This document shows, in pieces, positions 4,978 through 52,016 of a DNA stretch of 64,000 bases; the first letter of the stretch is position 1; each line of letters opens with the position of its first letter. The notes under the pieces are model-generated. The model was not told where the DNA came from. It did no database searches and saw only the letters and a program-made list of their open reading frames with translations. The DNA is from Bacillota bacterium. GTDB taxonomy: Bacteria; Bacillota; Limnochordia; DTU087. The DNA is taken from assembly GCA_012798695.1 (NCBI GenBank), contig JAAZMR010000070.1, positions 62,001 through 126,000 of the forward strand, in the 5' to 3' direction. A program made the translations under genes and the position numbers.

Positions 4978-5515
4978 GTAGAGCCAAAAAGTGATGCTGA
5001 GCCGGTGGCAGGATCGCCATCAGTGAAAGCGAATATGGTTAACTGACCTGATAACAAATGTAAGTCACAGGTGCCCTGGCCAGGGCGAGTGGGGCAGCAA
5101 GACATAGCAATTCTGGTAAGAGTTACACGCCCTGGGCTGGCAGGAAAGGCAGATAGAGAGTCGAAATCAGCAATGTGAAGTGATGGTCTTAAATTTCTAT
5201 CACAAAGCGGACTGACTAATATCAGTCAGCGCAAGCTCCCAAAACAAGTTATCAAGTTTTATCATCTGGCCTCATAGCTAGACGGGGAATAAGAAAGGAG
5301 GTGAAACAACCCTAAGTGCCCTGTTTAGCTGCAGCTGGATGGTAAAAGAAGCAGCATCAAATGCGGTCAAGTGGGAACCATTGAGGAAACATGGATACTC
5401 ATAGGAGTCCCCCTTGACGTACCAGACGATGCTGCCCATATAGCAAGTAGTTGCAGTGAACACTCTGAGCAAGTAAAAATTAAAGAAACTAAGCAAGACT
5501 TAGGGGGACTAACAG
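4978..5515 (+). other. 538-bp non-coding leader region of the first barrel gene
   Basis: No convincing gene lies here. The region contains a perfect 14-bp palindrome, GCCCTGGCCAGGGC (5073-5086). Its right half and the next base (5080-5087) could instead pair with CGCCCTGG at 5128-5135. A hairpin CTGACT/AGTCAG lies at 5212-5229, and a far-upstream Shine-Dalgarno sequence at 5293-5301. I could not match it to a known riboswitch class. It is probably a promoter region plus a long 5' untranslated leader. Confidence 0.5.
5293..5301 (+). promoter_or_regulatory. STAB-SD-like sequence (GAAAGGAGG) far upstream of the start
   Basis: GAAAGGAGG lies 215 nt before the start codon of the barrel gene and begins no usable reading frame: the adjacent GTG would give GTG AAA CAA CCC TAA. 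The same nine bases occur in the leader of the second barrel gene. It equals the STAB-SD motif known from cry3A, where ribosome binding protects the mRNA 5' end. The role here is inferred. Confidence 0.55.
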
Positions 5516-6706
5516 ATGAAGAAACTAGCTATAGCACTTGTTGCAGCATTAGTGCTCGCACTGGCGGCTCCGGCCCTAGCAGCCGACATCAACCTCGGCG
5601 GCTCGCTGGAAACCCGCTTCAACTTCGGACCTAAGAATGCCGAGGAGCCCTGGAAAGACTGGGGTATCGAAGCTGATAACGGCATGTCCATGAAATTGGA
5701 CGTCAATGCCGGTGACAGAATTCGGGTAGGTCTGGAGTTTGGTGAAGAGAGAATCGGTTTGGATGAAGATGACGAACTGGATGAGGGTCATAACGATCCT
5801 ACCGGTGAGGAACCTGGACAACTGGATATTACACTAGAAAAAGCTTATCTAGAGACTACCGGTGCTTTCTGGAACGGTGGTCCAGAGCTAGTCACCACTC
5901 TGGGTGATATCGACGTAGATTTCAATGATTATGTTGGTAGCCTCAGTGATGGCAATGGTATCAAGGTTGAGGGTCTCGAAGTTGGCCCTGTCAATGCCAG
6001 AGCTTTCTATGCCTGGGATCAAGGGCAAGTAGGTGCCGCAGTTGACACCACCTATGCCGATATCGACCTAGGTGCAGCTGTCGTAACCGATGGCGAGAAT
6101 ATCGAGGCTGCCGGTAGTGCCGGTACCGAGATCTCTGGTGTGAAGGTAAAGGCAGAGGCTGCTATGGACGAAGGCTCCAACTTTGCTTACAAGTTGACCG
6201 GGGAAACCGAGGTCATGCCCAATGTTACAGTCAAGGGCGGCTACCGTGACTCCGAGAACTTCAGCAGCCAGAATGCTAAGTTGGATGATGATGATGAACC
6301 CGTTGCCTATGATAATGAAAAGGGTTTCAATGTTGGCGTAGCTACTACTCAGTATGGCATCGATATGGAAGCTAACTATGATCAGCCCACAGAGAAGGTC
6401 ACCTTCTCCGCTGACAAAGAGCTCGAACTGGCTGGCCTGAACATCAAGGGCGAATATGATGCCAAGTTTATCAAGGACCAAGCCATTGAGCACAAAGTCA
6501 AGGTAACATCACCGATGGAACTGGTGCCTCAGCTGCAAGGCCTAGAGCTCAGTGCCGGTGCTACCATCAACAAGGATAATACTGAAGGCGAGAACAGCTG
6601 GAACGTAGGTGCTGATTACGAAGCTCCTAACGGTATCAATGTTGGTGCCAAGTATCACTCCAATGATGGCCCCTCCGCATATGCTGGCCTCAAAGTCGAG
6701 TTCTAA
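5516..6706 (+). CDS. Predicted outer-membrane beta-barrel protein
   Basis: This 396-residue protein starts with a clear signal peptide (MKKLAIALVAALVLALAAPALAA, cleavage near residue 22-23). The mature part is acidic, cysteine-free and made of short alternating beta-strand segments separated by Asp/Glu/Gly-rich turns. It ends in LKVEF, a C-terminal aromatic residue typical of the insertion signal of outer-membrane barrels. It has no SLH domain and no match I recognise to a named porin. The start is ATG 5516, behind a GGGGGA site. It has its own long leader and terminator, which suggests an abundant, separately controlled product. A secreted surface protein is an alternative. Confidence 0.65.
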   Translation: MKKLAIALVAALVLALAAPALAADINLGGSLETRFNFGPKNAEEPWKDWGIEADNGMSMKLDVNAGDRIRVGLEFGEERIGLDEDDELDEGHNDPTGEEPGQLDITLEKAYLETTGAFWNGGPELVTTLGDIDVDFNDYVGSLSDGNGIKVEGLEVGPVNARAFYAWDQGQVGAAVDTTYADIDLGAAVVTDGENIEAAGSAGTEISGVKVKAEAAMDEGSNFAYKLTGETEVMPNVTVKGGYRDSENFSSQNAKLDDDDEPVAYDNEKGFNVGVATTQYGIDMEANYDQPTEKVTFSADKELELAGLNIKGEYDAKFIKDQAIEHKVKVTSPMELVPQLQGLELSAGATINKDNTEGENSWNVGADYEAPNGINVGAKYHSNDGPSAYAGLKVEF

Positions 6707-6720
6707 TCACCAATAACCTC

Positions 6721-6749
6721 AAGCCCCTGGCTGATGCCGGGGGCTTTTT
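6721..6749 (+). terminator. Intrinsic terminator of the first barrel gene
   Basis: An 11-bp stem (6721-6731 with 6736-6746, one G-U pair) with a TGAT loop ends in a TTTTT run. Confidence 0.93.
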
Positions 6750-7191
6750 CATCCCCTCAGCCAAATAGCTCTCGTTTTCGGAAAAAGGTCCTAAGCTTGA
6801 AGGAACAATGTATAGTTAGGCAGAATAAAGAATATAGAAAAGTAACAGCAGCTATAGGCAGCCACTCCTTTCCTTGGGGATTCTGTGGGAAACTGCTTTT
6901 TTGCAGAAAAATTTCCAGCTCATAGGCAGGAGTTTGGTGGGTGAGAAAGAATACATCACCAGAGCCCTTGCTTTACTATTTCTATATGAGAACATGTGTC
7001 TATGATCCCGGGAAGGGCTTGGTATGAAAGGAGGTGCACCCAACCAGTTTGGCCAAGACCTCAGGTGGGAGAACATAGAGGTGCGGACGTTGAATATGAG
7101 GAGAAAAAGGAAACGAGGATACTTTTTCCACCCCTCTGCTCACATACCGCATCAGCAATGGATTGCGAAGACAAACTGAGGGGGATTACAA
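6750..7191 (+). other. 442-bp leader region of the second barrel gene
   Basis: No convincing gene is present. A -10-like TATGAT lies at 7001-7006 without a clear -35 box. A far-upstream Shine-Dalgarno sequence follows about 20 bp later. If transcription starts near 7013, the mRNA leader is about 180 nt long. Confidence 0.45.
7026..7034 (+). promoter_or_regulatory. STAB-SD-like sequence (GAAAGGAGG), second copy
   Basis: The motif is identical to that at 5293-5301 and is also followed by TG. It lies 158 nt before the start codon and serves no recognisable reading frame. It may stabilise the transcript by binding ribosomes. Confidence 0.55.
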
Positions 7192-8694
7192 ATGAAAAAA
7201 GCACTAGTATTGACTCTGATCATGGTTCTAGCCATGGCAGGGGTCGCATCTGCTGAGGTTAGCTTCGGCGGAGAGTTTAAAGTTGAGTATGTAGTTGATA
7301 CAGACAAAGAAACCGCCGGGGACGGCGCAGCCGAAGCACCTTTGAAGCTGAAAGCAGTAGCTGAGGAAGAGGGTGTTTGGAAGGCTGATGCTGAGCTGAA
7401 GGCAGATGCTAACAAACCGGGAGAGCTCAAGGTCGGCAAATGGTCTATGAATCTTAATGATGACCTGTTTACAGCTGATCTGTGGGGCAACGGTGTAGAG
7501 AAATCCGAAGTCAAGACTCCATTGGAGTTTTTCAAAGCCGGTAAGACGGGCACGGATGACAAGGCTCGGATGCGATTAACCAGCGATGTGGCCGGTTATG
7601 TCGATCTCACCTTAGACTATGATTACGCTGCGAACGACTTGTTTGTGTTTGCAGAGAAGGCCTTGGATGAAGTCACTGTCGGTGGCAACATTAAGAAGAA
7701 CCTCACAGAAGAGGGCGTACTGGGAACTGCCCACGTCAAGTATGTATATGGCCCTGCCACTTTGACTGGTGAAGTCGGCATGGATACAGCCGAGGAAGAA
7801 GATAACTTCTTGGGTGGCGGCAAAGTCGACTATAAGCTCAATGATCAGATTACTTTGAAGGGTAAGGCCACCTATAAGGCTGAGAACGTCGGTGACGAGC
7901 TGCTGTTAGAAGCCGGTGCTGACTATGTGGAGAACCTCTTCAAGGTTGGCGGCACTCTGACCAGGACAGATGACCTCGATAACGACGATACCGAGGCCAC
8001 CTACAAGGTCAAGGGCAATGTGACCTATCGGTCCAATGAGGATGTCGCGTATGACGATCTCTTCGATGACTATGACAAGCTGACTGGCTATGCGGCATTT
8101 GCTGAGTTGGCCTATACGACCGCGCAGGATTATGACTACGCTGGTGACGACAAAGAGTTGGAAAAGCGGGATCTGGAGCCAATCATGGAAGCCACCATCA
8201 AGGGCGCCGGTGTCGCAGTACCTGATATGGTTTGGGTATATGGTGAGTTTAGCTATAAGTCCGATGAGGACGAGAATGTAAAAGATGAGGACTTCCAGTT
8301 CATCCTCGGCAACAACAAGCTGACGGATGAAGCAGTCCTGTGGGTGAAAGACTACTTTAAGGTTTCTGCGGAAGCAACAGTGCAGATTACCGATAAACTG
8401 CAGGCTGTTCCTACTGTGAAGTACGGGACATGGAACACCCTTGCGCAGACCAAGACTGAAGTGGACAAAGATGATGATGGTACAATCGACTCCTACTATA
8501 ATGGCTTAACCGCCAAGGACATGAGTGAGCTCGAGCTGGGCGCTGGCCTAACCTATGAGCTGTCAGATAGCTCCGAGGTCGGACTATCATACACGAATCG
8601 CACTCAGAAGTTTACCGAGCCAAAAGGCATTACTGATATGGGTAAGGAGCTGAAAGATAGCTTCGTCAAGGTATACTTCAAGACCAGCTTCTAG
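7192..8694 (+). CDS. Predicted outer-membrane beta-barrel protein
   Basis: This 500-residue protein has a signal peptide (MKKALVLTLIMVLAMAGVASA, cleavage near residue 21). The mature part is strongly acidic, cysteine-free and rich in alternating amphipathic strands such as TLTGEVGM, ITLKGKATY and LELGAGLTYEL. It ends in VYFKTSF, again with C-terminal phenylalanine. Asp/Glu-rich turns could bind cations. It shares organisation but little obvious sequence with the preceding gene, from which it is separated by a terminator and a leader of its own. It has a GGGGGA site. The transported substrate, if any, is unknown. Confidence 0.65.
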   Translation: MKKALVLTLIMVLAMAGVASAEVSFGGEFKVEYVVDTDKETAGDGAAEAPLKLKAVAEEEGVWKADAELKADANKPGELKVGKWSMNLNDDLFTADLWGNGVEKSEVKTPLEFFKAGKTGTDDKARMRLTSDVAGYVDLTLDYDYAANDLFVFAEKALDEVTVGGNIKKNLTEEGVLGTAHVKYVYGPATLTGEVGMDTAEEEDNFLGGGKVDYKLNDQITLKGKATYKAENVGDELLLEAGADYVENLFKVGGTLTRTDDLDNDDTEATYKVKGNVTYRSNEDVAYDDLFDDYDKLTGYAAFAELAYTTAQDYDYAGDDKELEKRDLEPIMEATIKGAGVAVPDMVWVYGEFSYKSDEDENVKDEDFQFILGNNKLTDEAVLWVKDYFKVSAEATVQITDKLQAVPTVKYGTWNTLAQTKTEVDKDDDGTIDSYYNGLTAKDMSELELGAGLTYELSDSSEVGLSYTNRTQKFTEPKGITDMGKELKDSFVKVYFKTSF

Positions 8695-8749: not shown

Positions 8750-9116
8750 GGGGGCATATTGGTAGTGGTGCAGAGGCTGGTGACCATTGAGAAGGATTGC
8801 CAAAGAAAAACTCCCCTTGGAAGAAGGATAATAAAATCCGCCGTTGAATAATGTTTACGAGAGAGTAACCCGAAGCAAGCCGCTTTGCGGTTCATATAGA
8901 TAAAAATCATATGCATAGCGTCCGGGGCCGAAAGCAGGCACCGGGAACTTTTATTACGCAGTGTTTTCCCTTCGGGTTGTGATGCCTCTCTGAATGCTCG
9001 CTTATGTAGATATAATCACATTGCTCGGGGGGTGGGAGTGAAAGCAGGGTTTAAGTAGTTATTACAAGTTCTTGGCAGCTTGTGCCATGTTGCATATAGA
9101 AGGAGGTCTTTAGACG
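8750..9116 (+). other. Non-coding region before the ABC ATPase gene
   Basis: No gene is seen. A perfect TATAAT lies at 9011-9016, but no convincing -35 box is 16-18 bp upstream. The ribosome-binding site AGAAGGAGGTC sits just before the next gene. Confidence 0.4.
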
Positions 9117-51735: not shown

Positions 51736-52016
51736 AAATCATGACAAGGCACGACTGTGAAAGGGAGGAGTAGGTAATTACCGCCGTCAGAGAGGGAGTT
51801 TCAGCGGCTGCAAGATCTCCCCGGTAGGAATTGCTGAAGGTCGCCCTGGAGTCGCCATTCGAACACTGTACTTGCAAAGCACAGCTAGTAGGCATGGCCG
51901 GGTCAGCCCGTTACAGCATGAAGTGCTGCTGGTTCAACAGTTGTATCGGACCGGCAGAAATAAGGTGGTACCGCGGAAGTCTGAGCTTTCGTCCTTGTGG
52001 ACGGGAGCTTTTTTGG
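51736..52016 (+). ncRNA. T-box leader with terminator, upstream of valS
   Basis: The T-box sequence AAGGTGGTACCGCGG lies at 51962-51976. It is followed by an 11-bp terminator stem (51984-51994 with 51999-52009, two G-U pairs) and TTTTTT. Upstream, GGAGGAGTAGGTAATTACC, AGAGAGGG and GGAATTGCTGAAGGTCGCC resemble stem-I elements. Uncharged tRNA(Val) should favour antitermination. The specifier codon could not be fixed; GTA at 51868-51870 is only a candidate. Confidence 0.93.

Follow-up and report, generated by a model that had tools for sequence, protein, structure and literature searches.

A far-upstream Shine-Dalgarno sequence lies within a predicted structured leader RNA of outer-envelope protein genes in double-membraned Firmicutes

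At the stabilizing Shine-Dalgarno (STAB-SD) sequence of the cry3A mRNA, RNase J is the nuclease that is blocked (PMC4113751). For the tisB mRNA to be translated, both a 5' pseudoknot and a standby site some 100 nt ahead of the sequestered ribosome-binding site (RBS) are required (PMC7708055), and timP translation depends on a pseudoknot together with far-upstream elements (PMC11228461). Here, we analyzed a 64,000-nt stretch of DNA from a Bacillota bacterium (the window) in which two genes for putative envelope proteins each carry a Shine-Dalgarno (SD) sequence far upstream of the start codon. The two leaders are very likely copies of one structured RNA, representing an RNA family; this folded RNA, previously unlisted, very likely heads the messages for outer-envelope proteins in many double-membraned (diderm) Firmicutes, whose lineages are named in PMC10628300. 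The features of both leaders are collected in Table 1.

Table 1. Features of the two leaders and their genes in the window
Feature	Position	Strand	Description and basis
Leader 1 module 1	5257-5347	+	Outer helix 5257-5271 with 5333-5347; inner helix 5277-5287 with 5319-5329; encloses the far-SD loop
Leader 1 far SD, GAAAGGAGGUG	5293-5303	+	In hairpin loop; 7 family genomes with minor variation, class-wide alignment, complement of 16S 3' end
Leader 1 anti-SD segment, CCCUAAGU	5310-5317	+	Same loop as far SD; perfect 8 bp with ACUUAGGG, 5498-5505
Leader 1 module 2 hairpin, loop GGAAACAUGGAUAC (5385-5398)	5382-5401	+	Class-wide stem covariation
Leader 1 gene SD region, ACUUAGGGGG	5498-5507	+	Partner of 5310-5317
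Envelope gene 1	5516-6706	+	Signal peptide and predicted beta-barrel; weak OMP_b-brl and porin NF033939 matches
Leader 2 module 1	6999-7079	+	Outer helix 6999-7004 with 7074-7079; inner helix 7018-7023 with 7052-7057; RNAalifold consensus, 6 genomes
Leader 2 far SD, GAAAGGAGGUG	7026-7036	+	Kept in 6 genomes
Leader 2 anti-SD segment, CCCAACCAGUUUG	7039-7051	+	CAGUUUG with CAAACUG 7172-7178; CCC with G-run 7180-7184
Leader 2 module 2 hairpin, loop GGAAACGAGGAUAC (7109-7122)	7101-7130	+	Family alignment and class-wide covariation
Leader 2 gene SD region, CAAACUGAGGGGG	7172-7184	+	Partner of leader 2 anti-SD segment
Envelope gene 2	7192-8694	+	Signal peptide and secreted protein; orthologues in family

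The motif GAAAGGAGG occurs on the forward strand at 5293-5301 and 7026-7034, with TG next in both cases. These are its sole two copies in the window, with 214 nt between the first copy and the ATG at 5516 and 157 nt between the second and the ATG at 7192, in agreement with the spacings of 215 and 158 nt given in a preliminary description of this DNA. The count in the window is by itself unsurprising (1.04 copies expected versus 2 seen; 29 of 100 shuffles reach 2), and the significance of the motif comes instead from its conservation in the family and across the class. Six copies of GAAAGGAGGTG are present in the entire 2.68-Mb genome, versus none of the control; when the contexts of the other four were inspected, two lay at normal SD distance from a gene, one probably did, and one did not. 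Orthologues of gene 1 in six other family genomes and of gene 2 in five have the far SD upstream, slightly altered in some cases (e.g., GGAAGGAGG or AAAGGGGGTG), and alignment of the family leaders shows it kept before both genes within blocks of conserved sequence. This conservation before envelope genes, in the family and class-wide, supports the proposal that the motif is functional.

The 3' end of the class 16S rRNA reads GGATCACCTCCTTTCTAAGGA, so that AGAAAGGAGGUG is its 12-nt perfect complement; in 12 class genomes the end reads GGATCACCTCCTTTC, and TAAGGA comes next in the six for which the reading was extended. The capacity of the motif to bind the 16S 3' end, assumed in the preliminary description, is thus upheld as a predicted pairing, with a duplex energy of -19.9 kcal/mol for the far SD versus -10.3 kcal/mol for the gene SD.

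The two leaders had been described as unrelated sequences sharing only this motif, which turned out to be incorrect: they have in common the hairpin stem around the motif, another hairpin, with GGAAACRNGGATAC as its loop, and a loop segment that is the complement of their own gene's SD. In module 1, the 16S-complementary GAAAGGAGGUG lies in the loop of a hairpin. For leader 1, compared across seven genomes, standard pairs fill 95.8% of pair cells versus 35 to 56% when one strand is slid, seven pairs are changed on both sides, and the covariation score is greater than that of all 500 shuffles; the single-strand fold has a z score of -4.7, and the small inner hairpin is invariant across the seven genomes, so it has no covariation to score. 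The helices of leader 2 module 1 are nearly invariant within the family (the outer pairs fully so), and support for them therefore comes from the consensus fold and the class-wide stem test. In that test, the segment preceding the far SD fits the post-loop segment of its own leader far better than those of other leaders, with z of -13.9 for all leaders and -7.5 for 22 dissimilar representatives.

Several further elements lie upstream of module 1. A palindrome, CTGACT-N6-AGTCAG or ACTAAC-TTAT-GTTAGT, is found there in 10 of 63 leaders (at 5212-5229 in the window; in related leaders, the far SD follows 60 to 85 nt further on) and is a possible operator or 5' hairpin; similar sequences occur in loci L103 and L104, and an eleventh match is of unrelated sequence. 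Conserved GCAGGA...GAAAT and GCAGGA...GAATA blocks are seen at about 5137-5170 and 6926-6955, 70 to 160 nt before the far SDs. A STAB-SD is expected to lie at the 5' end of its stable mRNA; a sigma-70-like promoter scan of the leaders, run to place transcription starts, gave no consistent site or peak.

Module 2 is a hairpin about 73 nt (65 to 92) past the far SD with the 14-nt loop GGAAACAWGGANAC in 63 leaders. Its stem is 81.5% paired versus 35 to 50% when slid, and it contains 75 double-change cells versus 30.5 in shuffled alignments, a value reached in 0 of 500 shuffles. Because the search pattern itself specified the loop letters GGAAAC and GG, part of their constancy is imposed; it did not specify the closing A-U pair, loop positions 13 and 14 (A and C), or the stem. 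In leader 2, the piece containing this region (7080-7155) folds with a z score of -3.5. Between modules 1 and 2 (e.g., 5349-5372), a CGCAGC-like motif, often double (ACGCAGCA..ACGCAGCC), is kept in several leader types.

The pattern AAGGAGGTG-N65..95-GGAAACNNGG was found in 42 of 73 class genomes and 28 of 42 genera, with three matches in total for the reversed control; the genomes compared are largely metagenome assemblies. A covariance model built from 48 leaders (R2) has matches at E ≤ 0.1 in 69 of the 73 genomes, many of them far stronger than this threshold and the weakest to be taken as candidates, and it also recovers off-pattern copies, for example, those with GGGAAC and GGTAAC loops. 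Model R1 alone gave strong matches solely to copies of the leader 1 type. The genome under study has a third leader copy (G000:C54:42067-42202, reverse strand), ahead of an SLH-domain protein of at least 1,004 residues. In nearly all inspected copies, the downstream open reading frame (ORF) opens with a signal peptide and encodes an SLH or barrel-like protein, and the Pfam SLH domain was matched in 5 of 10 target proteins tested (E values of 2e-9 to 8e-16). The pattern is also present in other families and classes of the phylum, where 13 loci again stand ahead of SLH or barrel-like secreted proteins; 12 of these match R2 along its length, with E values of 5e-17 to 1e-5 in that search. Several other outside-class pattern matches (L096-L099, L105-L107, and L116) have no envelope protein downstream and are probably due to chance, and matches L071 and L082, in coding or insertion-like context, and the weak match L171 were treated likewise. 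The suggested link to envelope genes is supported: of the strong copies inspected, nearly all lie ahead of a gene for a signal-peptide protein. The targets found do not fit the expectation that the motif would precede highly expressed genes in general.

The gene 1 product is predicted to be a barrel from its signal peptide, its strand-rich sequence, and weak matches to OMP_b-brl and porin NF033939, both under the curated cutoff. We limit the label to these grounds because the family matches are weak and the AlphaFold model, with a pLDDT of 31, has no confident fold. For the gene 2 product, no match to curated families was above the cutoff. At the Rfam gathering score, neither the window leaders nor 20 related loci had a match, and the reading as a known riboswitch or other Rfam RNA was rejected. 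Elsewhere in the window, a T-box leader is present at 51748-51999, and the region between gene 2 and a malK-like gene (8830-9100), 84% conserved in L008 and with no Rfam match, is a candidate second RNA element; a multibranch fold closed by UAACCCGAAG/CUUCGGGUUGU has a z score of -2.0 there, and a longer piece of 201 nt has one of 0.0.

Directly behind the far SD, the loop holds a segment complementary to the SD region of the gene that follows, 150 to 290 nt away, and the paired letters differ between leaders (for example, CCCUAAGU/ACUUAGGG, CAGUUUG/CAAACUG, CUCAGU/ACUGAG, AAGGUU/AACCUU, and UCCCCUU/AAGGGGA). Across 63 leaders, the pairing energy was -14.05 kcal/mol for matched versus -11.75 kcal/mol for swapped partners (z of -8.6; 0 of 10,000 permutations), in a permutation design that reduces the effect of shared ancestry and does not remove it; for the 22 dissimilar representatives, z was -4.6. 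Control segments (upstream, +30 to +56, the far SD itself, and -52 to -26) gave null results. Two secondary controls were not fully null: the loop against the first 26 nt of the coding sequence (z of -2.7; representatives, -2.9) and the segment after module 2 (z of -3.1, fading to -1.2 in representatives). The pairing was replicated in 42 further leaders, mostly found by R2 and outside the set that revealed it, with an energy z of -6.5 and a weaker result by the longest-helix measure (z of -2.9). When the G-run was omitted, the ten bases before it still matched the leader's own loop (z of 8.2; representatives, 4.8), and the bases between the SD and the AUG showed no match to it. This gene-specific match is the strongest evidence from sequence comparison that the predicted pseudoknot would be functional.

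The comparison directly yields the far SD with its hairpin, the module 2 hairpin, the pairing of the loop with the gene SD, and the nature of the target genes, and from these we infer a cis-acting structured RNA that would control translation of outer-envelope mRNAs, a reading to which we give somewhat better than even weight. The far SD, perfect and non-initiating, would dock a 30S subunit, as predicted from its complementarity to 16S rRNA, while the pseudoknot would mask the gene SD. A subunit docked beside the anti-SD segment could then open or remodel the pseudoknot and be passed on to the gene SD, as in ribosome standby, and docking may also shield the 5' region from RNase J. A regulator, with CsrA as a candidate, would probably bind module 2 and determine if the pseudoknot opens, and so may coordinate envelope protein synthesis.

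The same pairing could instead deliver rather than mask: the helix would set the start codon beside the far SD, which would itself serve the gene 150 to 290 nt away. The geometry suits such an arrangement, as the anti-SD segment starts 0 to 9 nt past the far SD and the helix mostly ends 6 to 16 nt before the AUG (the start codons of relatives being a script's choice among ATG, GTG, and TTG with SD-like sequence upstream), the pairing extends away from the AUG and not toward it, and the far SD is predicted to bind 16S rRNA about twice as strongly as the local SD. However, an SD-like G-run is kept in 61 of the 63 leaders, as if itself used, and G-runs act as SD sequences elsewhere in the window, with GGGG in the SD window of 17 of its 46 genes (the set from which our statistics on ordinary genes are drawn); because local G-runs are ordinary in this way, the gene SD may well be used. 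We consider delivery unlikely. In its broadest form, this would be an RNA device found across the phylum in diderm Firmicutes: a long-range pseudoknot would carry a perfect SD across 150 to 290 nt to the start codon (a split RBS), giving outer-membrane proteins a shared translational control that predates the divergence of the lineages. That form seems to us doubtful to the same degree.

A reading centered on CsrA is likewise one that we think improbable. Here, the protein would bind ACANGGA in the module 2 loop, perhaps also AAGGAG in the far SD, and either repress or protect the mRNA. In most leaders, the module 2 loop does hold the SELEX core ACA-N-GGA (consensus in PMC7652899), and csrA is present in 65 of 73 class genomes, including the one under study, which is weak evidence because CsrA is near-universal in the class. 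On the other hand, the best conserved loop positions are GGAAAC..GG; the A of GGA is present in just 51 of 63 leaders and lost in 12, the A before N is lost in 10, several SLH leaders have GGT, and the loop is far larger than the hexaloop that CsrA prefers (PMC7652899).

A pure STAB-SD, in which a 30S subunit bound at the far SD would block 5'-3' decay by RNase J and yield long-lived envelope mRNAs, the remaining structure being incidental, strikes us as slightly less probable again. The preliminary description read the motif in this way and equated its letters with those of the STAB-SD of Bacillus thuringiensis cry3A. Part of that reading stands: the far SD is a 16S-complementary sequence in the 5' untranslated region with no conserved start codon downstream, as defines a STAB-SD, and appears not to initiate; RNase J is encoded in 11 of 11 family genomes, and the mechanism is established for cry3A (PMC4113751). 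It leaves unaccounted for the gene-specific pairing of the loop with the gene SD, which a 5' roadblock would not need, as well as the conserved module 2 hairpin of a two-hairpin RNA and the confinement of the targets to envelope genes, none of which it predicts.

The idea that the far SD serves a small upstream ORF or leader peptide was rejected as highly improbable: the SD-like sequence and a 51-codon ORF at 7024-7179 speak for it, but that ORF begins ahead of the SD and indels disrupt it in relatives, there is no conserved reading frame after the SD and no conserved start codon at initiation distance from it, and any start 4 to 13 nt past AAGGAGG is found in just 19 of 63 leaders, opening frames of unrelated lengths. 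The earlier remark that the motif has no usable reading frame overlooks the ORF at 7024-7179, which starts ATGAAAGGAGG; a GTG or TTG start in some relatives and out-of-frame indels indicate that this ORF is not a conserved gene.

Returning to the structured RNA as a whole, it would constitute a new family of structured mRNA leaders associated with the outer envelope in diderm Firmicutes, lineages that are central to how one- and two-membrane bacteria are related. Because SLH and barrel-like genes of several families of the phylum share the leader, its distribution suggests an old, common post-transcriptional control of the envelope. It would also offer a defined, testable case in which a ribosome docks on a perfect SD remote from the start codon and this docking is coupled to a masked gene SD.

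Each of the known systems resembles the leaders described here in part. CsrA-bound leaders, such as that of Bacillus subtilis hag (PMC7652899), share with most of ours the ACANGGA core in a hairpin loop, and a csrA gene is present, whereas the best conserved positions here are others, the loop is larger, and CsrA is a candidate by sequence. Like the STAB-SD of cry3A, the far SD is far upstream, non-initiating, and 16S-complementary, in organisms that encode RNase J; unlike it, the SD lies in a hairpin loop beside an anti-SD segment that would pair with the gene SD, a second conserved hairpin follows, and the copies found stand before envelope genes. Classic standby sites are single strands with no specific sequence, and the perfect SD found here counts against standby of that kind. 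As in timP, far-upstream elements are combined with a pseudoknot, their need for translation having been shown for timP and being proposed here by comparison; timP is an enterobacterial type I toxin under an antisense small RNA, and the cited parts of that report describe no upstream SD/anti-SD unit for it (PMC11228461). The tisB mRNA likewise loads ribosomes at a site well ahead of its masked RBS and has a pseudoknot in its 5' untranslated region, features that our comparison predicts for these leaders; in tisB, an Escherichia coli toxin gene, these are a single-stranded region and a local 5' pseudoknot, whereas here the loading site would be a perfect SD and the pseudoknot partner the gene SD itself.
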